Source: Phycisphaerales bacterium
GTDB lineage: Bacteria > Planctomycetota > Phycisphaerae > Phycisphaerales > UBA1924
Assembly (NCBI GenBank): GCA_947459215.1
Contig: CANHCQ010000003.1
Location: 1-64,000, forward strand
Length of the DNA: 64,000 bases
Direction: 5' to 3'
The stretch's first letter is position 1. Each line of letters starts with the position of its first letter. The notes under the pieces were generated by a model. It did not search any database. It was not told the origin of the DNA and worked only from the letters and a program-made list of their open reading frames with translations. Below are positions 13,293-58,966 of this stretch, piece after piece. The position numbers and the translations under genes were made by a program.

Positions 13293-13931
13293 TCACTTCC
13301 CGCCGGTCTGGGCGTACAGCTCCGCGACCTTGCCCCAGTTCACCACATTCCACCACGCCGCCATGTAATCCGGACGACGGTTCTGGTACTTGAGGTAATA
13401 CGCGTGCTCCCACACGTCGAGCCCCAGGATCGGCGTGCCCTCGCAGCCGGCGATGGCCTTGCCCATCAGCGGATTGTCCTGATTCGCGGTGCTCGCGATC
13501 TCGAGCTTGCCGGCGTTGACAATCAGCCACGCCCAGCCGCTGCCGAAGCGACCGGCACCCGCGGCCTGGAACTTCTCCTTGAAGGGAGCAAAGCCGCCGA
13601 AGGCCGCGTTGATCGCCGCGCCGAGCGCCCCGCCCGGCTCGCCGCCGCCACCCTTGCCCGCGGGGGCCATGAGCTGCCAGAACATCGAGTGATTGACGTG
13701 CCCACCGACGTTGTTGCGAGCCGGACCCCGCTTGTCGTCGGGGAGTTCGGCGAGCGCCTTGATGATCGCGACCGGGTCGGCGTCGGCCCACTTGGTGCCC
13801 GCGAGCGCGTTGTTGGCGTTGGTCACGTAGGCGTTGTGATGCTTGCCGTGGTGGATTTCCATAGTGGCGGCATCGATGTGCGGCTCAAGCGCGGCCTTGT
13901 CGTACGGGAGCGCGGGAAGGGTCAGAGGCAT
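13293..13931 (-). CDS. sodA: Superoxide dismutase, Fe/Mn family
   Basis: The 212-residue enzyme disproportionates superoxide. Metal ligands are visible: histidine in [11 protein letters not shown], histidine in [11 protein letters not shown], and aspartate and histidine in [27 protein letters not shown] in the C-terminal domain supplies the glutamine typical of manganese or cambialistic enzymes, so manganese is favoured. ATG at 13929-13931 is preceded by AAGGAG. It is convergent with the tricarboxylate operon and its stop lies 17 bp beyond that operon's last stop. Confidence 0.95.
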
Positions 13932-14603
13932 CGAAGGACTCCTTGCGAAAGTGCTGGACCATCGGACGAGTGGAGTATCAGGCGGCGAAGCCGCCGCAGC
14001 TCGCATTCTTGCCGGGAATCGGACCGAAAGCCGCGGATACCGAGCGGATACTAAACTCCACTTTCATGTACCGAATATAATACAAACAAAGAAAGATGTG
14101 GATAACGTGGTGGGTACATTGGCGGGCTCAGTGTTTTCCGGTAGAATCAGAGTCCGTGCCGTGTCCGGGGTGCTGGAGGATCCAGCGTTGCGAGCAATCG
14201 CGAGGCGGTGCGGGTATCAACGGCGTGCCTTGGACGGCGGCGTGTCCGTATATCTTGTGGCCCGGCGTGTTGATCTGTTCGTCAGGAAGTGCGGCTCGCG
14301 GTGTTCCGGTTTCGGAACCCGCGGGGGGTTGACGGCGTATACCGAGCGATGCGATTTGCCGCGAAGTAGACGCCCCTCCCCAAAGTCGGTGCGACGGCTG
14401 ACGCGAGCGAGCGACGGTCACGAGAGGCCCGGAAGACCAACTGCCGCAACCGGTGGCGCTGGTCGAGCATCGGAAGATCACGTGGGATCTTCCGAAGAAC
14501 CGTGTCTGGATTTTTGGCGGGTCTCCATGAGGGAGAAGCTGCGAACGGACGGTGTTGGAAGACTCGTATAGATCGGTGTGTTTGCGGGTGAGGGAGACTT
14601 CGA
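13932..14603. other. 672-bp intergenic region between sod and sigma factor genes
   Basis: The genes diverge from this region, so it should carry both promoters. A TATAAT lies at 14076-14081 without a clear -35 partner. TGTGGATAA (14097-14105) matches the complement of the DnaA box consensus, but a single box means little. Around 14040-14110 the DNA is AT-rich compared with its surroundings. No gene is recognised. Confidence 0.5.
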
Positions 14604-15926
14604 ATGTTCGACACTGAAAATCGCCTCCACGAAGGCGAGGCGCTCGAAAGCGTTGGGAGCGACGGCACACGGACGGCCCCTGTTGGATGGGTCAGGAAGG
14701 TCACGATGAAGCAGGCAGGAAACAAGCGAGCGATCGGCCCCCTGGAGCAGATGCGCCGGCGCAACCGCGCCGCGGTGTCGGTGGCCGCGCCGGCAGATCC
14801 TCCGGCCGCGAAGCGCAAACGCGCCGCCAAGGCCACGATCGACGACGTCGTTCCCGCCGTCGTCAGCAAGACCGTCGTCCGCAAACGCCTCAGCGGCGAG
14901 GACGAGCGGCTGCTCGCGACCATCCTCTCCGCGGAGCAGGACTTCATCGACAGCCCCGCGTTCTATGAAGAGAACGCCACCGGCAAGATCTACGACGAGG
15001 CTCCGGACATCCAGAAGCCGGACACGACGTGGTACCACCCCGTGATGGACGATCTGTCCAGCACGTCGCGCACCCGCACCGTGAAGAGCACCCAGCAGGT
15101 GATCCTCACCGGCGCCGAAGAGCGCGTGCTATTCCATCAGTTCAACTACGCCCGCTATCGGGTGTGGAAGCTGCAGCAGGAAGTCTGGGCCCGCCCCAGC
15201 CGCCTGCCCACGCCCGAACAGGCCGACGACATCCTCCGTTGGCACCGCAAGGCCGAGCGCATCCGCGAACAGATCGCGGAGACCAACCTCGCCCTGGTGC
15301 TCGCGATGGCCAAGCGCACCCGCATGAGCGAGGTCGACTTTGCCGATCTCGTGAGCGAGGGCAACATGGCGCTGCTCCGCGCCGTCGACAAGTTCGACGC
15401 CGGTCGTGGCTACAAGTTCAGCACCTACGCCTGCCGAGCCATCCTCAAGGCCTTCAGCCGCCAGGGCATGAAGCTCAGCAAGTACCGCCAGCGCTTCCCA
15501 ACCGACTTTGACCCCAAGCTCGAGAAGTCCAACTTCCTCGAGACCAAGCGGTCGACGTTCGAGAAGGACGCGGCGGAGGAAGTCCGTCGCATCGTTCAGG
15601 AGAACCGCGCCGAGCTCACCGACGTCGAGCGCACCGTGATCGAGCATCGCTTCGGCCTCGAGCAAAAGAGCGAGGAAGAGAAGCCGATGACCCTCGAGCA
15701 GGTCGGCCAGATCATCGGCGTCACCAAGGAGCGCGTCCGCCAGATCCAGAACAAGGCGATGGAGAAGATCAAGCGTCAGCTCGAGATCAACTTCCTGGGC
15801 ATGAAGCCCACCGAACTCCCGCCGCTCGACGGCGAAGGCAACCCCAGCGAGGGTGTCGTGCTTCCGCCGCTCTCTCTCGCCGAGGCGGAGCTCAAGTACA
15901 CGATCGCCCAAGTCGCCCAGAACTGA
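14604..15926 (+). CDS. RNA polymerase sigma factor, sigma-70 family (RpoD/RpoS/RpoH-like)
   Basis: The 440-residue protein has a lysine/arginine-rich N-terminal part (about 1-85). Region 2 is at about 225-290, with FADLVSEGNMALLRAVDKFD followed by YKFSTYACRAILKAFSRQG. Region 4 is at about 340-400, with TLEQVGQIIGVTKERVRQIQ. Region 1.1 is not evident and the region 3 part is short. It is larger than an ECF factor and closer to group 2/3 sigma factors. An internal ATG at 14706 could be the start. A strong terminator follows at 16003. Confidence 0.88.
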   Translation: MFDTENRLHEGEALESVGSDGTRTAPVGWVRKVTMKQAGNKRAIGPLEQMRRRNRAAVSVAAPADPPAAKRKRAAKATIDDVVPAVVSKTVVRKRLSGEDERLLATILSAEQDFIDSPAFYEENATGKIYDEAPDIQKPDTTWYHPVMDDLSSTSRTRTVKSTQQVILTGAEERVLFHQFNYARYRVWKLQQEVWARPSRLPTPEQADDILRWHRKAERIREQIAETNLALVLAMAKRTRMSEVDFADLVSEGNMALLRAVDKFDAGRGYKFSTYACRAILKAFSRQGMKLSKYRQRFPTDFDPKLEKSNFLETKRSTFEKDAAEEVRRIVQENRAELTDVERTVIEHRFGLEQKSEEEKPMTLEQVGQIIGVTKERVRQIQNKAMEKIKRQLEINFLGMKPTELPPLDGEGNPSEGVVLPPLSLAEAELKYTIAQVAQN

Positions 15927-16363: not shown

Positions 16364-17521
16364 ATGTCTCTGACCTCTGACACTCAAACCGATGCCGCCC
16401 CAACCGGGCACATCGCCTCGATGCCCGATCAGAAGCACGATCCGCACGCGACGCGCTTCGGCAAGTTTCTCCAAGCCGCCATCAAGCTCGAGGCCTCGGA
16501 CCTCATCATGAAGTCCGACCAGGTGCCCAAGCTCCGCATCCGCGGCGGCCTGAAGGGCCTGGACTGCGAGCCCTGCAGCCGCGAGGAATTCTGGGAGATC
16601 GCCAAGCACATTCTCGACGAAGAGCAGATGGCGGATCTGCACAAGTTCGGCTCCGTCGACTTCGCGTACGACTACGACGCCAAGAACCGCTTCCGCATCA
16701 ATCTCTTCATGGCCCGCGGCAAACTGTCCGTCGCCGCCCGACTCATCACCAGCAAGATCCGCAGGTTCGAGGACCTCTACCTCCCGCCCATCATGGCCGA
16801 AGTCGCCATGCAGCCCCAGGGCATCGTGCTGCTCTGCGGCGTCACCGGCTCGGGCAAGTCGACCACGATCGCCTCAATGCTCGACTATGTGAACGAGCGC
16901 AAGAGCGTGCACATCGTCACCATCGAGGACCCGATCGAGTACATCTTCGAGGACAAGAAGGCGACCATCAACCAGCGCGAGATCGGGCTGGACTGCCTGG
17001 ACTTCAAGATCGCCCTGCGCGCGCTGGTTCGCGAGAACCCCGACATCGTGCTGGTCGGCGAGATGCGCGACCAGGAGACCTTCGAGGCCGCCCTGCACGC
17101 CGCCGAGACCGGACACCTGGTCTTCGGAACCATTCACGCCTCAAGCACGACCCAGGCGTTCAGCCGCATCTACGGTCTGTTCGAGCAGGAGGAAGTCCCC
17201 GCGGTCCGCAAGATTCTGGCGTACCAGATGCGCTCCTTTGTGTATCAGAAGCTCCTCCCGACGCTTCACCCCGACATCCCTCGCATCCCCGCGCTCGAGA
17301 TCCTCGTGAACAACGGCGTTGTTCGCAAGTTCGTGCTTGAGGGCCGCGAAGGCGAGCTCCGCGAGTACCTCAAGAGCGTTGAGGCCGAGCAGACCGGCAT
17401 GGTGGACTTCAACCGTTCGCTGGTCCGCCTCGTCGAACAGGAGTACATCCACCTCCGCGTCGCGCAGGAGAACAGCCCCAACGTCGACGAGCTGAACATG
17501 ATGCTCAAGAAGCTCAAGTAA
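16364..17521 (+). CDS. Type IV pilus retraction-type ATPase (PilT/PilU family)
   Basis: The 385-residue hexameric ATPase should power pilus retraction or a related pseudopilus motion at the inner membrane. The N-terminal PAS-like domain includes LEASDLIMKSDQVPKLRIRG. The core has Walker A GVTGSGKST, the acidic box HIVTIEDPIEYIFED, Walker B PDIVLVGEMRDQETFEAAL and the His box TGHLVFGTIHASS. ATG at 16364 is chosen because AAAGGGAG lies about 10 nt upstream; in-frame codons from 16244 add a non-conserved leader. It is distinct from the second PilT at 57695-58750. Confidence 0.9.
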   Translation: MSLTSDTQTDAAPTGHIASMPDQKHDPHATRFGKFLQAAIKLEASDLIMKSDQVPKLRIRGGLKGLDCEPCSREEFWEIAKHILDEEQMADLHKFGSVDFAYDYDAKNRFRINLFMARGKLSVAARLITSKIRRFEDLYLPPIMAEVAMQPQGIVLLCGVTGSGKSTTIASMLDYVNERKSVHIVTIEDPIEYIFEDKKATINQREIGLDCLDFKIALRALVRENPDIVLVGEMRDQETFEAALHAAETGHLVFGTIHASSTTQAFSRIYGLFEQEEVPAVRKILAYQMRSFVYQKLLPTLHPDIPRIPALEILVNNGVVRKFVLEGREGELREYLKSVEAEQTGMVDFNRSLVRLVEQEYIHLRVAQENSPNVDELNMMLKKLK

Positions 17522-17707: not shown

Positions 17708-19459
17708 ATGGGCCTTGATTTGATCGCTTCGCAGTCCGTGCCGACGCTCGTCCTGGGCGAGGCGCTCACGCTGGTGAGCTGGTGGAAACCGCTGCTCTTC
17801 GTCCCACCTTTTGTCGCCTGGGCATGGATTGTCTCATCCGTGCTCGACAAGCACGCAGCAAAATACTATCTCGAACGCGAGCGCTGGAACTTCATCCACT
17901 CCGGCGCGGCGATCGTCGCGCTCGCCGCCGCGATCTTCATGCCGCCTGTCGGTCAGAACGGCTCGCTCACATGGATCATCAGTCTTGTCGTCTTCAGCCT
18001 CGCGCTCCTCGCGAGCGTCGGGGCGTACATCGCCTCGGCCAATAAAGACGAACGCGTTCCCGCGAACGGCCGCGTCACGTTGGACTTCATCAAGTCGGCG
18101 ATCGGCTCCACCGACAAGCCCGGCAAGAAGAAGGCCGGCAAGGCGAAGGCCGGCACACCGTCGCTCGTGCTGCGGCGCCCGGACAAGAGTGCCGTCGAGA
18201 TCCCCGAGCCCGACGCGCCGGAATACGAGCTGCGACTCGCCGCCGAAGCGATGGCGATCAAGGCCTTTGACAACCGCTCCACCCGCGTCGAGCTGCTGCA
18301 GAACACCAAAGAAACCTTCCAGACCCTCTTCCACATCGACGGCATGAAAGTCCCGGGCGAGACGATGCCCGCCGCCACCGGCGTCAAGATCATCGATTTC
18401 TGGAAAGCCGCGGCCAAGCTTGATGTCAACGACCGCCGCAAGAAACAGGCTGGCGACGTCACGATCGAACGCGGCACCGTCAAGAACAAGTTCCACCTTG
18501 AAACCGTCGGCGGGCAGGCCGGCCAGCGCCTCACGATCATCATCGACCCTGAGCAGCAGGTGCGAAAGACCGCCGAGCAGATCGGCTGGACGCCCGAGCA
18601 GACCGACCTCATTAAGTCGTGGACCAACCAGCGCGGCGGAGCAATCCTGCTCGCCGGCATGCCCGAGGGCGGCCGCACCACCACGCTCTACACCGTGCTA
18701 AAAATCCACGACGCGTACACCAACAACGTCCAGACCGTCGAGACCGAGATCGAGGACGGCGTCGAAGGCGTACGACAGAACCGCTGGGACGCTCAAGCCG
18801 AGGGCCCGGACTTCCCCACACTCGTGCGTTCGATCCTTCGTCGCGATCCCGACGTAGTCGCGCTCTCCGATGTGCCCGATGCCCAAACCGCCAAGGAAGT
18901 GCTGAAAGCCGATCAGGACAAGTGCCGCGTCTGGTGCTCGATCCAGGCCGACGGCGCGGTCGGCGCCATCCAGCAGTGGATGAAGCTCGTCGGCGATGCC
19001 GAGGCGACTGCCAACTCGGTTCGCGGCGTGGTCGCCGAGAAACTCATTCGCAAGCTTTGCATCAATTGCAAGCAGGCATATCAGCCCGCTCCCGACGTCC
19101 TGAAGAAGCTCGGCCTGCCCGCAGACAAGGTGAAGCAGCTCTTCAAGAAGGGCGGCGAGGTCCTTGTCAAGAACAAGCCCGAGACCTGCCCGGTCTGCCA
19201 GGGGACGGGCTATCTCCAGCGCGACGGAGCGTTCGAGGTCTTTGAAATCACCGACGGCGCCCGCGAGATGATCAAGGCCCAGAACTGGGCCGGCGTCAAG
19301 GCAGAGCTGCGCAAGAGCGGGCTCCCCAGCATCCAGCAGGCGGCACTTCGCAAGGCCGTCGACGGCATCACGAGCGTCGAGGAAGTGCTCCGCATTACCG
19401 CGGAGGCAGCACCCGCCAAGCCCGCTGCTCCAAAGCCCGCCGCCAAACCGACCGCGTGA
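17708..19459 (+). CDS. Membrane-anchored PilB/GspE-like protein with degenerate ATPase motifs
   Basis: The 583-residue protein has three hydrophobic N-terminal segments (about residues 24-45, 64-80 and 87-108), unusual for this cytoplasmic family. A GspE-like domain follows. The Walker A site reads GMPEGGRTTTLY, with arginine replacing the catalytic lysine. The Walker B area reads PDVVALSDVPDAQTA where GspE/PilB have VGEIRD-ETA. The zinc tetracysteine motif is kept: CINC and, about 45 residues later, CPVC. ATP hydrolysis is therefore doubtful and the protein may be a structural or regulatory paralogue of PilB. The C-terminal tail is alanine/proline/lysine-rich. Confidence 0.82.
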   Translation: MGLDLIASQSVPTLVLGEALTLVSWWKPLLFVPPFVAWAWIVSSVLDKHAAKYYLERERWNFIHSGAAIVALAAAIFMPPVGQNGSLTWIISLVVFSLALLASVGAYIASANKDERVPANGRVTLDFIKSAIGSTDKPGKKKAGKAKAGTPSLVLRRPDKSAVEIPEPDAPEYELRLAAEAMAIKAFDNRSTRVELLQNTKETFQTLFHIDGMKVPGETMPAATGVKIIDFWKAAAKLDVNDRRKKQAGDVTIERGTVKNKFHLETVGGQAGQRLTIIIDPEQQVRKTAEQIGWTPEQTDLIKSWTNQRGGAILLAGMPEGGRTTTLYTVLKIHDAYTNNVQTVETEIEDGVEGVRQNRWDAQAEGPDFPTLVRSILRRDPDVVALSDVPDAQTAKEVLKADQDKCRVWCSIQADGAVGAIQQWMKLVGDAEATANSVRGVVAEKLIRKLCINCKQAYQPAPDVLKKLGLPADKVKQLFKKGGEVLVKNKPETCPVCQGTGYLQRDGAFEVFEITDGAREMIKAQNWAGVKAELRKSGLPSIQQAALRKAVDGITSVEEVLRITAEAAPAKPAAPKPAAKPTA

Positions 19460-19539: not shown

Positions 19540-21405
19540 ATGTCCGAGAGGGTTTTCAACATGATCATGAGCATTCTGGCGATCGGCATCATGGCTGGTA
19601 TCGCCTACTCCTGGGGCTCGCGCGGCGGGTTCTCCTCGATGCTGAACTGCTTCTGCGTTCTCCTCGCCGGCGCCATCGGCTACGGCCTCTGGGAGCACGT
19701 GGCGACATGGTTGATCGGCGCCGCCGGCCCCCGCGGCATGAGCGCCTTTCTCGCCGACGTCGCCTGGGGTGCTGGCCTCGCGATCCCGTTCGGTCTCTCG
19801 CTCGCCATCCTCCGCGGCATCGTCGATGGGCTCATCCGAAAGAACCTGAAGTTCAGCCCCGCCGGCGATTGGATCGTCGGCTGCGGATTCGGCGCGGTCT
19901 CCGGCCTCGTCATTTCCGGCGTCAGCGTCCAGACCCTCAGCGGCATGCGCCTCGGGACCGAGGCGCTGGGATACGCCGCCATCACCAGCGACAACAGCGG
20001 CAACATCCAGCGTGGCTCTGGCCTCATCCTGCCCACCGACCGCATCACCGCCTGGATCTACTCCGGTCTCAGCCGCGGCACCTTCGCCAGCCCGACGCCG
20101 ATGGCCCAGTGGAACCCGGATCCCACAGTGCTCGCCGCCAGCACCCGCGCGTCCTTCAGCGATGGCAAGGGCCGTAACTCGATCAAGACCTCCGACTTTG
20201 AGGTCGTCGGTCGCTACCTGCTCGACCCAGCCAAGATGACCGCCGTGCCCCCGCCGCCCAGGCCGGCGAATCTCCCCCAGGGCGCACCCGCCCCGGCCCC
20301 CGTTGACTTCAGCGATCTGCGTGCAGATCTCTTCGACCCGGGCCCACAGACCGCGAAGATGTACGACGGCGCCCCGGTCGACAAGACCGCCAAGCTCCAC
20401 GGCATCATCCTGAAGTTCCGCGCCGGTGCCAAGGAACGCGCCAGTGGCCAGTTCATCATCAGCAACGGCCAGCTCTACCTCATCGCTGAGGACGATTCCG
20501 GCCGAACCGAGGTCTTCTTCCCCTCGGCCGCGATCTGCAAGGCCGAGGCCGGCAAGGTCGGCATCGCCCGATTCCGCTACGACTCCAAGGACACGCACCT
20601 CGCGTCGCTGGGCGGCGACTCCGAGTCGAATTGGGCCTTCGAGTTCTTCCTACCCCCGGAGTTCGAGCCCAAGGCCGTTGTTGTCAAGGGCACACGGGTG
20701 CGCCTCGATGACGACGACAAGTTCAAGCCGGTGGAGTTCGAGAACCGTCAGAAGCGTGACGCACTCATCGCAGCCGGACAGTTGACCGTCGGCAACGCCG
20801 GCGGGAAGATCGATGAGAGCCGTGCGATGCGCATCACCGCCGACGGCAATGCCCCACCGGCCGGTGTGAACGTCAACAACCAGATCGGCGTCACGCTCCA
20901 GGACGGCACACTGGGCTCGGGCATGACGGTCACGAACAACCGCATCGCGGCTGGTGAATTGACGATCGATCCCAAGGACACGCAGGGCCGAGGCCTCGAC
21001 CAGTCCCTCCGCGTCGACAAGTTCGCACACCCCGAGCAGGTCGGCCTGATGCGAATCGACGTCGGTTCCAGCCAGGGCGAGAACAGCCTGCTCGGTGCCG
21101 CCGTCCGCGAGGCCGAGGCCGACGCGTCCACACCCGCAACCCCGTTTGTGGTGGATTCCAACGGCGTCAAGTACGACGCCGTCGGTTACATCTATCAGGA
21201 CTCCACGAAGTTCAATATCAAGTACGCGATCGGCGAGCCGATCCGTTCGACCAACGACATCCCGCGTCTGTCACGCAGCAAGCCCGACCAACGCATGCAG
21301 CTCGTCTTCGCGCCGACCGTCGGCGTTGAGATCGTCGGCTGGGGCGTCGGCAACAAGCTCGTCGCCAAGTACATCCCGGGCGTCGTGGTCAACGCCCAGC
21401 GCTGA
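19540..21405 (+). CDS. CvpA-like multi-pass membrane protein with large C-terminal domain
   Basis: The 621-residue protein begins with three or four membrane segments (residues 8-125, including SILAIGIMAGIAYSWGSRGG and FCVLLAGAIGYGLWEHVATW), in the manner of CvpA/colicin V production proteins. A long soluble domain of about 480 residues follows that is not recognised; it looks beta-rich and probably faces the periplasm. It is 80 bp downstream of the PilB-like gene and ends before a strong bidirectional terminator. A role at the envelope with the neighbouring PilB-like protein is inference from position. Confidence 0.7.
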   Translation: MSERVFNMIMSILAIGIMAGIAYSWGSRGGFSSMLNCFCVLLAGAIGYGLWEHVATWLIGAAGPRGMSAFLADVAWGAGLAIPFGLSLAILRGIVDGLIRKNLKFSPAGDWIVGCGFGAVSGLVISGVSVQTLSGMRLGTEALGYAAITSDNSGNIQRGSGLILPTDRITAWIYSGLSRGTFASPTPMAQWNPDPTVLAASTRASFSDGKGRNSIKTSDFEVVGRYLLDPAKMTAVPPPPRPANLPQGAPAPAPVDFSDLRADLFDPGPQTAKMYDGAPVDKTAKLHGIILKFRAGAKERASGQFIISNGQLYLIAEDDSGRTEVFFPSAAICKAEAGKVGIARFRYDSKDTHLASLGGDSESNWAFEFFLPPEFEPKAVVVKGTRVRLDDDDKFKPVEFENRQKRDALIAAGQLTVGNAGGKIDESRAMRITADGNAPPAGVNVNNQIGVTLQDGTLGSGMTVTNNRIAAGELTIDPKDTQGRGLDQSLRVDKFAHPEQVGLMRIDVGSSQGENSLLGAAVREAEADASTPATPFVVDSNGVKYDAVGYIYQDSTKFNIKYAIGEPIRSTNDIPRLSRSKPDQRMQLVFAPTVGVEIVGWGVGNKLVAKYIPGVVVNAQR

Positions 21406-21530: not shown

Positions 21531-22313
21531 TCACTTCGACTTGGCGGCCTTCTTCTCGGCCTTCTTGTCGGCCTTGGCCTCGGGCTTGTCTTCGGCGGGC
21601 TTGGCGTCGGACTTCTCCGCGCCCTTCTCGCCGCCCTTATCGCCACGCTCGCCACGCTCGCCACGCTCGCCACGCTCACCACGCTCACCACGCTCGCCGC
21701 GTTCCTTCTTCGGCTTGGGCTCGGGGCGCTTGATCACGCCGAACGTGCCCTTGCCTTCGGACTCGGTTGCGATCGGCGAGAGGCTCGAGTTCGACGAGGA
21801 CGATGCGGCGACCGCACCCTCCTCGCTGGTGTCGCCGGCCTTCTTGATGTCCAGCGGACGGTCGGCATCGACGTGGAGCTTGATCGTCGCATCCAGATCG
21901 TTGTCGAGCCTGATGTGCACGTCGTAGTGATCGACCCGCTTGATCGCCTGGTTGATCCGCACATCACGCGGCTTGACGCCGTGGCCCATCTTGTTCAGTT
22001 CCGACGCGATCTCCTGCTGCGTGATCGCTCCGTACAGGATGCCCTGGTCGTTGCAAGGCTTCACGAGCTTGACCTCGACGCCCTGCAGCTTGCCCGTCAG
22101 TTCCTCGCGAGCCTTGCGCTGCGCCGCGACAAGCTTCTCGGCCTCGACGCGCTTGGCGGCGAGGGCCTTGATCTTCTCCTCGCTGGGCTGGGTGGCCAGG
22201 TTGCGGGGGAGCAGATAGTTGCGGGCGTACCCAATACGCACGTTCACCACGTCGCCCACGATTCCGAGGGCTTCCACGTTGTCGGTCAGAAGCAGCTTCA
22301 CGTTGGTCGGCAT
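21531..22313 (-). CDS. rplI: 50S ribosomal protein L9 with long charged tail
   Basis: Residues 1-150 are a normal L9: the rRNA-binding N-domain (DNVEALGIVGDVVNVRIGYA, RNYLLPRNLA), the connecting helix and the C-domain. About 110 further residues follow. They include an arginine-glycine-glutamate repeat coded by 9-bp tandem repeats (21650-21710) and a lysine/alanine/glutamate-rich end. Typical L9 is about 150 residues, so this tail is unusual. It is last in the rpsF-ssb-rplI train; no rpsR lies between ssb and rplI. Confidence 0.95.
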   Translation of the reverse strand: MPTNVKLLLTDNVEALGIVGDVVNVRIGYARNYLLPRNLATQPSEEKIKALAAKRVEAEKLVAAQRKAREELTGKLQGVEVKLVKPCNDQGILYGAITQQEIASELNKMGHGVKPRDVRINQAIKRVDHYDVHIRLDNDLDATIKLHVDADRPLDIKKAGDTSEEGAVAASSSSNSSLSPIATESEGKGTFGVIKRPEPKPKKERGERGERGERGERGERGERGDKGGEKGAEKSDAKPAEDKPEAKADKKAEKKAAKSK

Positions 22314-22633
22314 GCCGCTGTCCTTTCTCCCGGCGCCAGCCGGGGGTCAGTTAGGAGCCGCAGGGCACAAGCCCGAAGCGACCCCAACATTCGAGCGTCG
22401 CCACAGGGCGCCGCTCTTGCGAGTTGTTCCCCGGGCGAAGTCGCCACAGGGTCAGGATTCTAGGCCAAAGCCCCCTCGAAAGCACCCGACCAAGGTCACG
22501 CTCCGGCCGCCTCAAGACAATCGTTCTTCCTCGCGGCAACGAAACGCCAACGAAGCCCCAATGAAAAGGACCGGCCGGAGGCCGGTCCCACTGGTCTTCG
22601 AGCGATAGGGCCTCGGCCCCGAAGCGACACACC
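22314..22633. other. Intergenic region between ssb and rplI, no rpsR
   Basis: In most bacteria rpsR stands here. No S18-like frame is seen on either strand. The region holds one copy of the GACCGGCC hairpin repeat (22568-22595), which may also terminate ssb transcripts because TTTT follows it on the minus strand. Confidence 0.6.
22568..22595. repeat. GACCGGCC hairpin repeat, copy 1
   Basis: GGACCGGCC (22568-22576) pairs perfectly with GGCCGGTCC (22580-22588) and is followed by CACTGGT. The same hairpin and flank recur three times at 39455-39597. Confidence 0.85.
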
Positions 22634-23107
22634 TCAGAACGGGATGTCATCCTCGGCGATCGGCGCCGCCGACGTGCTGGCCGGACGAGCGTTGCCGCGG
22701 GTCTGAACCGCGGGGCGATCCTCGTAGTCGCCGCCGGATTCGCCGCCGCCTCCCCCACCGCCGCCACCCTTGCTGTCCACGAAGTGGAAGCTGTCCACGA
22801 CAACCTTCAGCTTCGACTGCTTCTTGCCGGTGTCCTTGTCGTCCCACTGATCAAGCTTCAGGCGTCCCTCGATCAGCACCGGACGACCCTTAGTCAGATA
22901 CTTGGCCATGATCTCCGCGGTCTTGCCCCACGCCTCGCAATCGACGAACGTGACTTCCTCACGCTTCTCGCCGCTCTGCGTGGTGTAGTTGCGGTTGAGC
23001 GCCAGCCCGATGCGGGCGACCTGCTGACCACCACCACCCACCGCCCGCAGCTCGATGTCGCGGGTGAGGTTGCCCATCAAGATCACTTTGTTCAGAGAGC
23101 TGGCCAT
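22634..23107 (-). CDS. ssb: Single-stranded DNA-binding protein
   Basis: The 157-residue protein has an OB fold (LNKVILMGNLTRDIELRAV, GEKREEVTFVDCEAWGKTAE, KGRPVLIEGRLKLDQW), a glycine-rich linker and the acidic C-terminal tip EDDIPF that recruits replication and repair partners. It binds ssDNA as a tetramer. It lies between rpsF and rplI, the usual context of chromosomal ssb. Confidence 0.97.
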   Translation of the reverse strand: MASSLNKVILMGNLTRDIELRAVGGGGQQVARIGLALNRNYTTQSGEKREEVTFVDCEAWGKTAEIMAKYLTKGRPVLIEGRLKLDQWDDKDTGKKQSKLKVVVDSFHFVDSKGGGGGGGGGESGGDYEDRPAVQTRGNARPASTSAAPIAEDDIPF

Positions 23108-23176
23108 GCGTATCTCCTTCTCAGATCACACCTTCAACGATCACATCGCGATCGCGTTCTTTCCGTCTAACAAAGC

Positions 23177-23202
23177 GCGGCCCGGGCGTGTGCCCGGGCC
23201 GC
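23177..23202 (-). terminator. GC-rich hairpin between rpsF and ssb
   Basis: GCGGCCCGGGC (23177-23187) pairs perfectly with GCCCGGGCCGC (23192-23202). Read leftward only GCGCTTTGTT follows, so it is at best a partial terminator or an mRNA-stabilising stem. Confidence 0.5.
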
Positions 23203-23318
23203 ACGGCGTTCGGAGTGTATTAGGAAACCAACTCGGCTGCAAGCCTGTGGCGTCACAACCCGGAAAAACCGGGCCAAGACGCCTCCAGCACCAACACGCC
23301 AACCACCAACAAGCCAAT

Positions 23319-23750
23319 TCAGGCGTTGTCGGCGGCGGCGACCGGCTCGGCCGCGGCGGGAGCCGAGCCCTCGGCGGGCTTCTCAGCCCGGAGCTTGGCC
23401 TCGATCTCGAGCTCGCGGCGGCCGTCGGCGGCCTGCATCTGCTCCAGGGTCATGTGGTCGGCACGGATGATCATGTGCCGCAGGACCTTCTCGGAGAGGT
23501 TCAGGTCGCGCTCGAAGCCCTGCATCGACTCGTTGGGAGCCTTGATGTAGGTCAGGATGTACGTGCCGCGCTTGTTGCCCTTGACCTCGTAGGCCAAGCG
23601 ACGATCGTCCCACTTGCGCATGCCGATCACCTCGGCCTGGGCACGGGCGAAGATCTCGTTGAGGTGGGCCACGCACCCGCCGAGGTCGGCGGCGGCGGAC
23701 TGACCGAACAGGAACATCACTTCGTAGTTGTAAAAACGCTTACCGGGCAT
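23319..23750 (-). CDS. rpsF: 30S ribosomal protein S6
   Basis: The 143-residue protein has the S6 ferredoxin-like fold: YNYEVMFLFGQS, MRKWDDRRLAYEVKGNKRGT and LRHMIIRADHMTLEQMQ. A 40-residue alanine/glutamate-rich tail extends beyond the usual end. It starts only 3 bp after the pth stop codon and heads the rpsF-ssb-rplI group. Confidence 0.95.
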   Translation of the reverse strand: MPGKRFYNYEVMFLFGQSAAADLGGCVAHLNEIFARAQAEVIGMRKWDDRRLAYEVKGNKRGTYILTYIKAPNESMQGFERDLNLSEKVLRHMIIRADHMTLEQMQAADGRRELEIEAKLRAEKPAEGSAPAAAEPVAAADNA

Positions 23751-23753
23751 GTG

Positions 23754-24476
23754 TCACTCCACTTTCTGATTGGCTTGCGAGACCGAGGTCTCTGGTTTGG
23801 TTTCGGACTTGGTTTCTTGCTTGATCTCTGGTCTAGCTTCTGGCTTGGGTCTCGACGCCTGTCGCGCCTGATGCGCGGCGGCGCCGCCGTTGAACTGATT
23901 CATGGCCTTGGTGAGGCCGGAGGTCGCGAACACCTCCACCGCCTTGGCCGCCGTCTCGAGCGCGGGCTGCAGATCGGTCCACTCGTCCTCGCGGAACGCC
24001 GAGAGGACGTAGTCGGCCTGATCCCAGTTGGCGGGTTTGCCGCCGCTGGGTTTCTCGCCGACACCGATGCGCACCCGCGGATACACGCCGCTGCCCAGAT
24101 TCGAATCGATGCTGGACAGCCCGTTGTGCCCGCCGCTGCCCCCGGCGTCGCGGATGCGCACCGCGCCGACGGGGAGATAGAAGTCGTCCACGAGAACCAG
24201 GAGGTCGGTCGAAGGCTGGAGCTTGAAGAAGCGGATCGCTTCTCCAACCGCCTGCCCTGACAGATTCATGTACGTGGTCGGCTTCATGAGCACGCAGCGC
24301 TCGGTGCCCTGTGGTCCCTTGAGCTCCGCATCGATCGTCACCGCCTTGAACCGCGCCTTGGGGATCGCGCCCTTGGCGTGCGTCTCGGCAAGCCGGTCGA
24401 TCACCATGAACCCGGCGTTGTGCCGAGTCCTGGTGTATTCCGAGCCGGGGTTGCCGAGACCGACGATGAGTTTCAT
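23754..24476 (-). CDS. pth: Peptidyl-tRNA hydrolase
   Basis: The 240-residue enzyme frees tRNA from prematurely released peptidyl-tRNA. It has KLIVGLGNPGSEYTRTRHNAGF with the catalytic histidine, KPTTYMNLSGQAV, the catalytic aspartate in VLVDDFYLPVGAVRIR, and GGSGGHNGLSSI. ATG at 24474-24476 starts exactly at the family N-terminus; the in-frame codons upstream are a palindromic repeat. The last 45 residues are a low-complexity tail (PKPEARPEIKQETKSETKPE) not found in typical Pth. Confidence 0.95.
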   Translation of the reverse strand: MKLIVGLGNPGSEYTRTRHNAGFMVIDRLAETHAKGAIPKARFKAVTIDAELKGPQGTERCVLMKPTTYMNLSGQAVGEAIRFFKLQPSTDLLVLVDDFYLPVGAVRIRDAGGSGGHNGLSSIDSNLGSGVYPRVRIGVGEKPSGGKPANWDQADYVLSAFREDEWTDLQPALETAAKAVEVFATSGLTKAMNQFNGGAAAHQARQASRPKPEARPEIKQETKSETKPETSVSQANQKVE

Positions 24477-24489
24477 GGGAGGAACCGGA

Positions 24490-24580
24490 GGCATCAGGGA
24501 CCGGGCATCGGGCATCAGGAAGACATCTGGCACGCGGGTTTCCCCGATGGCCCGACGCCTGATGCCCAATGCCCTCGTCA
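24490..24580. repeat. Inverted pair of heptamer-type short repeats
   Basis: Left arm 24490-24520 carries CGGGCAT twice and CATCAGG; right arm 24553-24580 carries the complement CCTGATGCCCAATGCCC. It fills the gap between rplY and pth. Confidence 0.7.
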
Positions 24581-25345
24581 TCACTTCTTCGCCGCACCTC
24601 CCGCGGGCTTGGCGGCGGCGGCCCCGGCAGCGGGCTTCGCGCCAGCAGCAGGCTTCGCGCCGGCGGCGGGCTTGGCACCAGCGGCGGCTTCCTCGCCCTC
24701 GCCCTTCTTGGCGGTGAGCACTTCGGGCTCGGCCGGGCCACCCGCGGCTGCGGTGGCTTCACCAACAACGATCTCGGCCTGAATCACGATCTGGGCCAGG
24801 ATCGAGTGCGGGTCGGTGACCATCTTCATGTTCGCCGACGGGAGCTTCAGCTGGGCCGCCGTGATCTGCTGATCGACGTCGAGGTCGGCGATGTTCAGCT
24901 CGATGAACTCGGGCAGCTCGGTCACCACGCACTCGATGACCACTTCGTTGGTCGGGTGCATGAGAATCGCGCCGGCGGTCTTCAGACCCTTCGCCTCGCC
25001 GATGAGGTGTATCGAAACGCGGGTGCGGATGCGCTCGTTGAGATCAACGCGGGCAAAGTCGGCGTGGACGATGTTCGTGCCGAGGTAGTCAAACTGCAGA
25101 TCCTTGAGCAGCACCACCTGGCCCTCGTCCTTGTTCTTCGCGCCCGGGAAGTCGAGGCGGAAGATCTTCTCGCCCTTGTTGATGTGGCTGATGGCTTCCT
25201 TCATGTCGAGCGTGATCGACACGGGGTCCTGCTTGTGGCCGTACACGACGGCGGGCAGCATGCCCTGCGAGCGGGCGCGGTTGCAGAAGCGCGAGCCGGT
25301 GTGCTCGCGGGTCTTGGCCTGGAGGAGCGGAGTCTTCTGAAGCAT
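24581..25345 (-). CDS. rplY: 50S ribosomal protein L25, Ctc (long) type
   Basis: The 254-residue protein has the 5S rRNA-binding L25 domain (GSRFCNRARSQGMLPAVVYG) and the TL5/Ctc C-terminal domain (about 95-190), then a tail with three AAGAKP repeats. Family length without tail is about 200. It lies between prs and pth, the gcaD-prs-ctc-pth order known from Firmicutes. Tails rich in alanine, lysine and proline recur on several ribosomal proteins in this operon. Confidence 0.95.
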   Translation of the reverse strand: MLQKTPLLQAKTREHTGSRFCNRARSQGMLPAVVYGHKQDPVSITLDMKEAISHINKGEKIFRLDFPGAKNKDEGQVVLLKDLQFDYLGTNIVHADFARVDLNERIRTRVSIHLIGEAKGLKTAGAILMHPTNEVVIECVVTELPEFIELNIADLDVDQQITAAQLKLPSANMKMVTDPHSILAQIVIQAEIVVGEATAAAGGPAEPEVLTAKKGEGEEAAAGAKPAAGAKPAAGAKPAAGAAAAKPAGGAAKK

Positions 25346-55609: not shown

Positions 55610-56281
55610 TCAGGGCACGACCCAGACCAACCGCGTCACTTCCGCGGGCTGGGTGTCGTACGGCCCCTGGTACGTGACGACGACGGTGACACGAAGGGGG
55701 AACTGATCCACGGGGATGCCGGGGTCGCTGCCGGAGGGAGCAACGAAGTAGCCGTCGGCGCGGACGGTGGCGAGATTGAGCGGATCGACCTTTTCGACGG
55801 TGACGTTCTGCTGCCAACCTTCGAGCGACTTGGGCTCACCTTCGTCGTCGAGTTGCACGACGCCGTCGGCGTCGGTCATGGGGACGACGGTACCTGCGGC
55901 GGCGACGGGGCCGGGCATGTTGCCGTCGCGCCCGAAGATCTTGCCGTCGAAGTCGGTGAGGCAGTTGAAGTCGCGGACGACGACCTTCTCGGCGCCTGCG
56001 CCCCAGCCGACGACGGTCTGGCCGTTGACGGAGAGGCCGATCACGGGGTCGTACTTGGGGAGCCGTCGGGACAGCTCTCGGACTTCGTTGGCCAGGAGCG
56101 CGCCGGTGGCGGCACGGCTGGACCAGTTGTTCTGCTCGTTGAAGGCACGCTGCGCGTCGACAAACGCGAGCACGCCGACGCCGATGATGACCAGCGCGAG
56201 GCTGGTCTCCAGCAGGGTGAACCCGCGGCGACCGTGCGAGCGTCGGGCGGGACGGGAACGAACACAAGTTGCGAGGCGCAT
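55610..56281 (-). CDS. PilV/GspI-like minor pseudopilin
   Basis: The 223-residue protein starts with an arginine-rich leader and the class III signal GRRGFTLLETSLALVIIGVG, with glycine at -1 and glutamate at +5. LLETSLALVIIGVGVLAFVD matches the PilV/GspI consensus. The beta-rich C-domain ends VTRLVWVVP. It lies between pilC and the PilX-like gene, the normal place for minor pilins that prime fibre assembly. Confidence 0.85.
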   Translation of the reverse strand: MRLATCVRSRPARRSHGRRGFTLLETSLALVIIGVGVLAFVDAQRAFNEQNNWSSRAATGALLANEVRELSRRLPKYDPVIGLSVNGQTVVGWGAGAEKVVVRDFNCLTDFDGKIFGRDGNMPGPVAAAGTVVPMTDADGVVQLDDEGEPKSLEGWQQNVTVEKVDPLNLATVRADGYFVAPSGSDPGIPVDQFPLRVTVVVTYQGPYDTQPAEVTRLVWVVP

Positions 56282-56348
56282 AGCGGCGACTCCCCTCGCC
56301 GCCGCACGCGCGCCGTGCGTGCGGCATCCAGCACCAAGTATCGGATAT

Positions 56349-57572
56349 CTATTTGACGATCTGGCTCATCTTGAAGATTGGCAGGATGATCGCCATGGCG
56401 ATGAAGCCGACGATGACGCCCATGACGAGGATCATGATGGGTTCGATAAGGCTGGTGACGGCCTTGATGTGGTCCTTGAGCGCCTTCTGGTAGAAGACGC
56501 TGATCTCGTCGAGAACCTCGCCGAGCTTACCGGACTCTTCGCCCGCGGCGATCATCTGGCTGACGGCGCGGGGGAGGAGGGTTTCCTTGGTGAGCGTGCC
56601 GGTGATCTTCTTGCCCTGCTTGACGTTGCTGTAGACCTTCTTCCACATGGCGTGGTAGAGCTGGTTGCCGCTGATCTCGCCGGTGATGGCGAGGGTGTCG
56701 AGCATGGGGACGCCGGCGTTGATGAGCTGGCCCATGGTCTGGAGCGAGCGGCTGATGTATAGCGAGCGGAACATGGTTCGGACGATGGGAATGGTGAGTT
56801 TGAGCTTGTCGACCCAGAAGGCGCCGATCTCGGTCTTGGTGAACGCGAAGCCGCCGCCGCCGATGAGGGCGAGTCCGCCGAGGAGATAGGGCCAATTGGC
56901 GACGGTGAAGCGTGAGACGCTCATGAGGAAGGTCGTGGCCCAGGGGAGCACGTCTTCCTTGCCTTCGAACACCGAGTAGAACTTGGGAAGAACGAAGGTG
57001 AGCAGGAAGACCGTCACCGCGATCGCCAAGGTGCCGATGACGCCGGGGTAGATGGCGGCGCCGACGACCATCTTCTTGGTCTCGATCTGCTGGGCGATAT
57101 AGCCGGCGATACGGTCGAGCATCTTGGCGAAGGAGCCGGACATTTCCGAGGCCCGGGTCATGTTGACGTAGAGAGGGCCGAAGAGCTTGGGGTGCTTGGA
57201 GATCGCCTCGGAGAACTGCTTGCCGCTCTCGACGTCGTTCTTGAGCTGGACGATGATCTTCTTGAAACCGGCGTGCTCGGTCTGCTCGGCGATGCCGTCG
57301 AGCGCGGCGCGGAGGTTGATGCCGGCGCGGATCATGACGGCGAGCTGGGTCGTGAAGTCGAGGACGTGCTTCTGGGTGGGCTTGCCGGCGTTGAGTTCCT
57401 TGAACTTCGCCAGAAGTCCACCGCCCGACTCGCCTCCGAGTGCCAGCGAGATGCTGAGGACCTGGGAGCCCTGGTTGCGCAGGATGGTCGCAGCGCTGGT
57501 GGCGGAGTCGGCGGCGACGACACCGGTGGTGGTCTGGCCGGCGCTGGTACGAACTTGGTAGCGATAGTTGGG
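56349..57572 (-). CDS. pilC: Type IV pilus/type II secretion platform protein PilC/GspF
   Basis: The 407-residue inner-membrane protein has two GspF domains: RAGINLRAALDGIAEQTEHA with LFGPLYVNMTRASEMSGSFA, and NAGVPMLDTLAITGEISGNQ with PRAVSQMIAAGEESGKLGEV. Hydrophobic helices are VIGTLAIAVTVFLLTFVLPK and IMILVMGVIVGFIAMAIILP. It is the platform that the extension ATPase acts on. ATG at 57570-57572 (MPNYRYQVRT) fits; the codons upstream are repeat sequence. Confidence 0.94.
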   Translation of the reverse strand, partial: PNYRYQVRTSAGQTTTGVVAADSATSAATILRNQGSQVLSISLALGGESGGGLLAKFKELNAGKPTQKHVLDFTTQLAVMIRAGINLRAALDGIAEQTEHAGFKKIIVQLKNDVESGKQFSEAISKHPKLFGPLYVNMTRASEMSGSFAKMLDRIAGYIAQQIETKKMVVGAAIYPGVIGTLAIAVTVFLLTFVLPKFYSVFEGKEDVLPWATTFLMSVSRFTVANWPYLLGGLALIGGGGFAFTKTEIGAFWVDKLKLTIPIVRTMFRSLYISRSLQTMGQLINAGVPMLDTLAITGEISGNQLYHAMWKKVYSNVKQGKKITGTLTKETLLPRAVSQMIAAGEESGKLGEVLDEISVFYQKALKDHIKAVTSLIEPIMILVMGVIVGFIAMAIILPIFKMSQIVK

Positions 57573-57576
57573 CATG

Positions 57577-57694
57577 GTGAGTGCAGGCACTGGGCACTAG
57601 GGACTAGGCACTAGTGCATGGGTTTCGTACGAGTCTCCCAACAGCGGCTCCTGACTTTCCTAGTGCCAAGGGCCTGTTGCCAAGTGCCTACTCC
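57577..57694. repeat. Inverted pair of GGCACTA-type heptamer repeats
   Basis: Left arm 57577-57614 contains GGCACTG, GGCACTA, GGGACTA and GGCACTA; right arm 57660-57694 holds the reverse complements CTAGTGCC and AAGTGCC. It separates pilC and pilT. Confidence 0.78.
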
Positions 57695-58750
57695 TTATGC
57701 CGCCAGCTGGCGATCCAGCTTGTCGGGGTACGCGGCCTGGGCGATGGCGTCGTCGCGGCTGATCATGCCGTTGAAGTAGAGCGACGCGATGGCGGTGTCG
57801 AGGCTGCACATGCCGATGGCGCGGTTGGTCTCGATGACGTTGGGGATCTCGAAGCTGCGGGCCTCGCGGATGAGGTTGCGCACGGCGGGCGTGCAGAGGA
57901 GCACCTCGACGGCGGGCACCATGCCCGGGGCGTCGGTGCGGCTGAAGAGCGTCTGGCAGACGACGGCCTGCAGCGTGTTGGCGAGCATCGAGCGGATCTG
58001 GTTCTGCTGGCCGGCGGGGTACATATCGATGATGCGTTCCACGGTCTGGGACGCGTTCACGGTGTGCAGGGTGGAGAGGACCAAGTGGCCGGTCTCGGCG
58101 GCGGAGATGGCGAGCGAGGTGGTCTCGAGGTCGCGCATTTCGCCGACGAGGATGATGTCGGGGTCCTGACGCAGGGCGTGCTTGAGGCCGCTGGAGAAGC
58201 TGGGCATGTCCTGGCCGAGCTCGCGCTGTTCGAGGACGCACTGCTTGCTCTCGAACATGTATTCGACGGGGTCTTCGAGGGTGATGATGTGCTTCTTGTA
58301 GCGCTGGTTCATCGCCTCGATCATGGCGGCGAGTGTGGTGGACTTACCCGAACCGGTGTCGCCGGTGACGAGGACGAGGCCGCGGGGCAGGTAGGTGAGG
58401 CGGGCGATGACCTCGGGGAGATTGAGCTTGGCGAGCGGCGGAACCTTGGTCTTGATGCCGCGCATGGCGAGGCCGATCTGGCCGCGCTGGCAGTGGGCGT
58501 TGACGCGGTAGCGGCTGAGGCCTTCGACGAAGTAGGAGAAGTCGGCGTCCTTCTGACGCTCGTAGGTGGCCTGGGTCTCTTTGGAGGCCATCTGCTCGAA
58601 GAACTTCTTGGCGACTTCCGGGGTGATGACCGGGAAGTCCATGCGGGTCATGACCTGATGAATGCGGCACATCGGGGGCTGGCCGGCGATGAGGTGCACG
58701 TCGGAGGCGTCCGCCTCGAAGGCCGTCTTGAGAATCGTGTTCAGATCCAC
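57695..58750 (-). CDS. pilT: Type IV pilus retraction ATPase PilT
   Basis: The 351-residue protein has the PilT N-domain (FEADASDVHLIAGQPPMCRI), Walker A VTGDTGSGKSTTLAAMI, the acidic box HIITLEDPVEYMFES, Walker B PDIILVGEMRDLETTSLAIS and His box TGHLVLSTLHT, plus the AIRNLIRE-like end (AVRNLIREARSFEIPNVI). GTG at 58748-58750, with AGGAG 8 nt upstream, gives the exact family start; longer in-frame codons are unlikely. It is the first gene of the pilus operon. Confidence 0.94.
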   Translation of the reverse strand: MDLNTILKTAFEADASDVHLIAGQPPMCRIHQVMTRMDFPVITPEVAKKFFEQMASKETQATYERQKDADFSYFVEGLSRYRVNAHCQRGQIGLAMRGIKTKVPPLAKLNLPEVIARLTYLPRGLVLVTGDTGSGKSTTLAAMIEAMNQRYKKHIITLEDPVEYMFESKQCVLEQRELGQDMPSFSSGLKHALRQDPDIILVGEMRDLETTSLAISAAETGHLVLSTLHTVNASQTVERIIDMYPAGQQNQIRSMLANTLQAVVCQTLFSRTDAPGMVPAVEVLLCTPAVRNLIREARSFEIPNVIETNRAIGMCSLDTAIASLYFNGMISRDDAIAQAAYPDKLDRQLAA

Positions 58751-58966
58751 TTTGCCGCTCCTGGAGTGCCAGCGCGTCGGCGCGCCGAGTCTCTCTATGG
58801 ATCGGACGGCAGACGCGGTGGCTTCGCTGGCCCGCTCGATCCCCATCAACGTCGCGCCCACCTTAACTGGCCTAGGCGGACGAGACGGAATAAACGGACC
58901 GGGGAGGAGCTCGGGCTCGCGCGCGGGTGGTGGCTTCGGGGCGATGCCCTTGCTCGATGCGGTGGC

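Follow-up and report, generated by a model that had tools for sequence, protein, structure and literature searches.

Among the described systems closest to the locus considered here is the PilB/GspE group of extension-type ATPases, which share their T2SSE core, zinc tetracysteine domain, fold and ancestry with the protein at the centre of this report. In the archaellum, FlaH is a non-hydrolysing protein of the RecA fold that stands beside a motor of the PilT family and keeps ATP binding; as for CvpA, its role is to our knowledge unclear. For type IVa pili, one report (PMC6821130) describes two PilT-family proteins that are needed together: PilU-driven retraction in V. cholerae requires PilT, and even a Walker A mutant PilT supports PilU. 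Our analysis concerns a window of 64,000 nucleotides (the whole stretch of DNA presented above) and, within it, a gene group for a PilT-like ATPase, a PilB/GspE relative with a degenerate ATP site and a CvpA-like protein, in that order.

The gene of the PilB/GspE relative lies at 17708..19459 (+; exact coordinates of a 583-aa open reading frame) and its product seems to be a membrane-anchored pseudo-ATPase. Pfam matches residues 181-562 to T2SSE (PF00437; 162.4 bits against a cut-off of 24.9), which together with Foldseek places the core, an N2-like plus a RecA-like domain, at 18248..19393 (+); no other Pfam family, N1-type domain included, matches at E<=0.001. The equivalog models gspE (169.2 bits), pilB (168.2) and tfpB (158.8) stay below their cut-offs of 630.25, 675.65 and 850 bits, respectively. 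Walker A (residues 317-326; 18656..18685, +) reads GMPEGGRTTT, with arginine (R323) replacing lysine, and Walker B (VVALSDVPD, residues 383-391; 18854..18880, +) has SD for GE, which puts D388 at the position of the catalytic Glu. In the HIS box (residues 404-416; 18917..18955, +) the eponymous His is Q413, and the arginine-finger positions are taken by H263 and I278. The ASP-box region (TVETEIED, residues 343-350; 18734..18757, +) holds E345, invariant in the family, whose second Glu is mostly gone. Roles of the HIS-box, ASP-box and arginine-finger residues follow PMC5424180, and residues were mapped to PilB by their distance, counted backwards, from the catalytic Glu of one canonical sequence. 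Intact, on the other hand, is the tetracysteine motif, predicted to bind zinc: its first CxxC pair (C451, C454; 19058..19069, +) is Cys in 121 and 119 of 123 family members and its second (C494, C497; 19187..19198, +) in 120 and 121. The earlier note on this DNA, made from its sequence, had already reported the Lys-to-Arg exchange, the persistence of the zinc cysteines and, in place of N1, three N-terminal membrane helices, all of which our data bear out.

These helices (about residues 28-53, 57-76 and 83-113; 17789..18046, +) emerge from hydropathy, loop charges and an AF2 model alike. Averaged over 63 aligned members from the organism's order, hydropathy shows three peaks ahead of residue 110, and AF2 gives these same three helices in a model of middling quality (mean pLDDT 67.1, pTM 0.47, 8 sequences, monomer), the core of which finds its best PDB matches in PilB structures (5tsh, E 1.2e-26, and also 5oiu; Foldseek). 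Lys and Arg residues number on average 3.2 in the loop between TM1 and TM2 and 3.7 in the stretch after TM3 across the order, versus 0.1 in the TM2-TM3 hairpin, and several homologues from families f48, f98 and f89 carry N-termini that, judged by eye, resemble signal peptides. Because loop charges and signal-peptide-like N-termini point to an N-out arrangement, the N-terminus would face the periplasm and the core would very probably sit in the cytoplasm, at the membrane; a topology with the ATPase fold outside the cytoplasm, which the earlier note had singled out as evidence against its view, is thus not what the charged inner loops and uncharged hairpin predict.

With the window protein as query, a clear orthologue (at least 237 bits) was found in at least 59 of the 61 genomes that cover the genus, family and order, its own included; the other matches in these genomes, among those listed, score at most 160 bits, and G012 and G060 have no orthologue among the matches listed. 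One orthologue (G034) is split across two contigs and another (G038) cut by a contig end. A profile built from 28 members matches at E<=1e-90 in 143 of 150 class genomes, with a single match in all but one; among the seven genomes below that cut-off, the degenerate PilB is present in G069 (L191) and, truncated, in G131 (L233). That we are dealing with an oddity of one genome is ruled out by this spread (59/61 near and 143/150 class genomes). A phylum search over 199 genomes returned, among the matches listed, hits that reach the membrane region outside the class in families f48 (9 genomes), f55 (3), f98 (1) and f89 (1), a minimum as weaker ones may exist; in f69 the match is partial and the membrane region was recognised on reading the locus. 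One orthologue, 47% identical to the window protein (L051, RHKP01000026.1), comes from a bin labelled Cyanobacteria, a label that may be wrong.

For the comparisons below, the order set (n=63) comprises the window, 58 near genomes and four records placed by similarity (L051-L054); it includes two partial proteins (L071, L074) and excludes L048-L050, which lie on the same contigs as G001, G003 and G013, and L084, an N-terminal piece of the G034 copy. The other class set (n=58) was drawn from 121 class genomes beyond the order that gave a cvpA match. Together with the f98 and f89 proteins this gave an alignment of 123 distinct degenerate members, compared with 23 active homologues, namely 13 membrane-anchored PilBs (f48, f55, f69) and 10 canonical PilB/GspE proteins.

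Walker A lysine is present in none of the 123 but in all 23 active homologues and, since the latter invariably keep it, chance is no explanation for its loss. A close homologue with intact GKT, named by the earlier note as a possible refutation, does not occur among these proteins (121 from the class, two from outside it), GK[ST] being seen outside the class only, and the pattern G....GK[ST] is likewise absent from the proteins of six further genomes beyond the 123. What replaces lysine varies: R (51), L (27), V (22), I (7) and G (5), but also T, Q, S, A and M. Arginine, whose conservation the earlier note had proposed to check, prevails in the order (43/63) and is rare in the remaining class members (8/58), 45 of which have V, L or I. 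With R in 51 of 123 members only, arginine as a conserved special residue is ruled out; the conserved feature is the absence of Lys. Similarly, the loss of the Walker B Glu, correctly noted for the window protein, does not hold as a family rule: E stands there in 40 of 123 members, and E or D in 76. The HIS-box His is retained in 8 and 2 members at two positions, Arg at the equivalents of PilB R271 and R286 in 42 and 24, and the aligned second ASP-box Glu, in a region with small indels, in 31. Set against this decay, the P-loop glycine (G322), E345, R448 and E559 are invariant in all 123, G553 is kept in 122, and 121 have T or S at residue 324.

Nucleotide substitutions tell a similar story, with dN 0.103 and dS 0.827 between the window gene and that of G001 and dN 0.046 and dS 0.866 between G006 and G007. 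As far as sequence comparison can tell, there is purifying selection on fold, zinc cysteines and reading frame, and the pattern is that of a conserved pseudo-enzyme rather than a decaying gene. Long open frames across the sampled families and the low dN/dS of the two pairs rule out a pseudogene or sequencing error. Some profile matches extend past a stop codon that most likely lies at the C-terminus, and the relative in G047 has an inner TGA. A pseudo-ATPase state of this class-wide PilB relative is therefore well supported and, to our minds, almost certain, and we infer that the protein would neither bind nor hydrolyse ATP. Since E345 and the P-loop glycine are invariant, residual binding of some ligand may be possible.

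Upstream, at 16364..17521 (+), lies a PilT-like ATPase with intact motifs (NCBIfam pilT_fam, 370.9 bits against a cut-off of 319.1; its longest open frame begins at a GTG, 16244). GK[ST], GE[ML]RD and the HIS box (plus ASP box) are intact in 51 of 51 aligned PilTs from order-level cassettes, and GK[ST] is present in all 39 adjacent PilTs of other class loci as well as in that of L226. A pilT gene directly precedes the degenerate pilB in 52 of 63 order and 40 of 58 other class loci (92/121), and cvpA directly follows it in every case (63/63 and 58/58; 121/121). These counts include neighbours missed by our script owing to overlapping frames (pilT of L082 and L173, cvpA of L077); by script only, the values are 62 cvpA and 51 pilT for the order and 58 and 39 for the other class loci. 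Among the loci that lack an adjacent pilT, a contig end is close in 6 of the 11 from the order and in 3 of the 18 from the other class set. Seen by family, cvpA adjoins in 25 of 25 sampled class families and pilT in 21, the exceptions being f3 (contig ends), f8, f11 and f21. Where adjacency is missing, a cassette PilT may still be encoded elsewhere, as in five order genomes that lack it despite sufficient room (644-653 bits), five genomes of f8 and six of f48 (431-653 bits over the three groups). Not so in f11, where 8 of 8 genomes tested keep the degenerate PilB and the best PilT (326-347 bits) is no better than ordinary PilTs; G060 presents the reverse case, a cassette-type PilT (531 bits) without degenerate PilB. 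Given f11 and G060, the two proteins are not strictly interdependent, and strict dependence on the cassette PilT is ruled out. G089 and G120 are ambiguous (best PilT 382 and 379 bits), and the best PilT of G012, which has no degenerate PilB, scores 395 bits. Downstream of the PilT gene in G060 (L239, G060:C162) we noticed a gene whose product, a protein of 580 aa, has a signal-like N-terminus and falls outside the three cassette families.

The third gene (19540..21405, +) encodes a CvpA-like protein with four N-terminal membrane helices (residues about 8-133; 19561..19938, +) followed by a long C-terminal domain that is probably periplasmic or exported, and its profile matches in at least 145 of 150 class genomes. 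With 10.3 bits it stays under the Colicin_V cut-off (PF02674, 29.3), which two of seven proteins scanned do pass, L218 (35.8) and L223 (45.8), found in the same place beside PilBs from outside the class. In G039 the C-terminal domain is separately encoded (L240:6099-6812) with an N-terminus that by eye is lipobox-like, and, in keeping with this, the CvpA-like protein of the same genome (L060) has just 413 aa; in G048 a second copy of the domain is encoded separately (L241:6216-6965), with a signal-like N-terminus, again by eye. A model of the CvpA-like protein (mean pLDDT 62.5) gave no fold-search match at E<=0.001. Flanking the three genes are, upstream (13293-15926), a sigma-70-type factor (Pfam) and a superoxide dismutase-like gene (by eye) and, downstream (21531-25345), a block resembling L9-ssb-S6-pth-L25 (by eye); both surroundings recur in many loci of the organism's own family.

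As to other pilus and secretion genes, the window holds three PF00437 genes, the degenerate pilB and two PilT-like ones. The earlier note was thus right in seeing no normal PilB in the window, though as a clue this fails: the 3.66 Mb genome (94% complete) has eight strong full-length PilB/GspE genes elsewhere, all eight with GPTGSGKTTTLY, among 15 T2SSE matches above cut-off, besides 12 T2SSF matches. These eight genes rule out PilB loss from the organism. The second PilT-like ATPase (57695-58861, -) belongs to another pilus-type locus of the window (55610-58861, -), together with PilC/GspF (56349-57590, -) and an N_methyl pseudopilin-like gene (55610-56281, -); that pilC, the nearest in this genome, is about 37 kb away from the degenerate pilB.

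How might a motor protein have come to lose its ATP site? Outside the class, membrane-anchored PilBs of f48, f55 and f69 keep Lys, catalytic Glu and His in 13 of 13 cases, with Walker A motifs that read GPTGAGKST, GPTGHGKTT or GPTGSGKTT, which argues that the degenerate form descends from an active membrane-anchored motor. Both neighbours, pilT and cvpA, accompany it in f55 (3/3) and f69, and the nine f48 loci have either cvpA (six) or pilT (three), none both, the six cvpA-type genomes encoding a cassette-like PilT elsewhere (431-458 bits). In an IQ-TREE analysis (C20), for which 55 of 146 rows were used and motif columns left out, the class forms a clade (99/100) and the membrane-anchored PilB family stands apart from canonical PilB (98/91). 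Most likely, judging from these sequences, an active membrane-anchored PilB beside pilT and cvpA came first and loss of the ATP site later; only CvpA-like proteins of the class were seen to carry the long C-terminal domain. Two proteins from outside the class (L221 and L222; families f98 and f89) also lack the Walker A lysine. FastTree (146 rows) joins them to the class at 0.98 and the reduced IQ-TREE data place them beside f48 (81/34), with an AU test p of 0.50 for one versus two lysine losses, so their loss is possibly independent of that in the class.

What, then, would the protein do? In the lineage of the class, the ATP site was lost with fold, zinc domain and membrane anchor kept, usually beside an intact motor of the pilus-retraction type, which suggests that a former motor is now a docking or control part. 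It would still assemble, fully or in part, into a PilB-type ring at the inner membrane, tied there by its own helices, and act as a non-hydrolysing dock or regulator that couples a hydrolysing PilT (normally the cassette PilT) to a pilus or pseudopilus platform, and the CvpA-like protein would link it to the envelope. Taken as a whole, this picture of a membrane-tethered, non-hydrolysing PilB-type platform that serves both a PilT motor and a CvpA-like envelope protein might equally turn out right or wrong. Similarly, we are evenly divided over PilT as the partner, a role that derives from gene order, from co-occurrence, from the case of PilT and PilU in V. cholerae and from GspF/PilC, present in 149 of the 150 class genomes, the exception (G163, 76% complete) lacking degenerate PilB as well. 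From the earlier proposal of a non-hydrolysing partner next to PilT and CvpA, then, the degenerate site and the gene order can be extended to the whole class, but the partnership itself stays with gene order and co-occurrence, and these have counter-examples.

One such counter-example, the eight f11 genomes that keep the degenerate PilB without a cassette PilT, is what might be expected if the protein served structurally, as stator or dock, in a canonical type IV pilus or type II secretion machine whose genes lie elsewhere, the degenerate ring holding PilC/GspF or a real PilB at the membrane and the pilT gene order being merely inherited. The means for this are at hand: besides its 12 T2SSF matches, the organism encodes eight PilB/GspE proteins with active motifs, and GspF/PilC occurs in all but one of the 150 class genomes. 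We nonetheless consider it rather unlikely, for a canonical pilB is found nearby in just one of 58 other class loci (L149) and none of the 63 in the order, and by family its neighbours are cvpA (25/25) and pilT (21/25). Faithful linkage to cvpA (121/121), with its long, probably exported domain, could also be taken to mean that the cassette serves envelope maintenance without any filament, the PilB fold being a mere assembly scaffold; a PilT-type motor next door in 92 of 121 class loci makes this very improbable, and the near-universal GspF/PilC, which means that the protein was encountered in pilus- or secretion-type settings alone, speaks against it too, albeit as a weak test with a single PilC-free genome.

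Two further alternatives concern the ATP site itself. Invariant E345 and G322 and the near-invariant T or S at residue 324 (121/123) would suit a nucleotide sensor that binds a ligand (ADP, a c-di-nucleotide or other) without hydrolysis and signals to CvpA or PilT, and non-hydrolysing RecA-fold partners such as FlaH do exist. A conserved pocket is, however, hard to argue for when the Lys position is so highly varied and arginine fingers and second ASP-box Glu are mostly lost, and we regard a sensor as improbable. Scarcely probable at all is a weak ATPase whose active site is unusual, with Arg in place of Lys and shifted acidic residues: while the catalytic Glu position is often acidic (76/123) and the order favours R at the Lys position (43/63), none of the Lys, His and Arg positions has one conserved substitute and, outside the order, Lys mostly gives way to V, L or I (45/58).

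Returning to the degenerate PilB as a non-hydrolysing platform for PilT, one may tentatively go further and envisage, as less probable than not, a third kind of motor of the type IV pilus family in planctomycetes, made of a membrane-anchored PilB, its own PilT and a CvpA-type envelope protein, in which the degenerate PilB ring of the class would have become purely mechanical and would serve the PilT ring as a stator, a clutch or an adaptor. If true, one hydrolysing motor would drive a machine that ancestrally had two. This bears on whether both motor rings of type IV machines must hydrolyse ATP or whether one can only couple, a question for which the evidence in PMC6821130 comes from engineered mutants. 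A whole bacterial class now seems to represent a natural version of that experiment, for which active membrane-anchored homologues in other families of the phylum provide the control. Our data also point to a membrane-anchored PilB family and a pilT-pilB-cvpA gene group, in which CvpA gains a candidate partner. In the open-access literature (most subscription papers being outside our search) we found no description of a degenerate or membrane-anchored PilB, a CvpA-PilB link or such a gene group. Pseudo-ATPases are already known as a kind, and it is for a membrane-anchored one of the PilB/GspE type, fixed in a class, that we found no earlier open-access description.

In comparison with canonical PilB/GspE enzymes, the protein lacks the Walker A lysine, has mostly lost HIS box and arginine fingers and shows no N1 match; it has three membrane helices instead, with pilT and cvpA as neighbours. 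Its active membrane-anchored counterparts (f48, f55, f69) resemble it in membrane helices, zinc domain and pilT upstream and/or cvpA downstream, and differ from it in their intact Lys, Glu and His (13/13) and in a short CvpA (208-244 aa in three scanned) without a long C-terminal domain. The window's CvpA-like protein has the four-helix N-terminal domain in common with the CvpA (Colicin_V) family, from which its long C-terminal domain and its sub-cut-off score set it apart. FlaH, by comparison, is a member of a different family and is not known to have membrane helices. And whereas the inactive partner in the PilT/PilU pair is a laboratory mutant of PilT, the one described here appears to be a natural pseudo-ATPase of the PilB type that carries membrane helices of its own.
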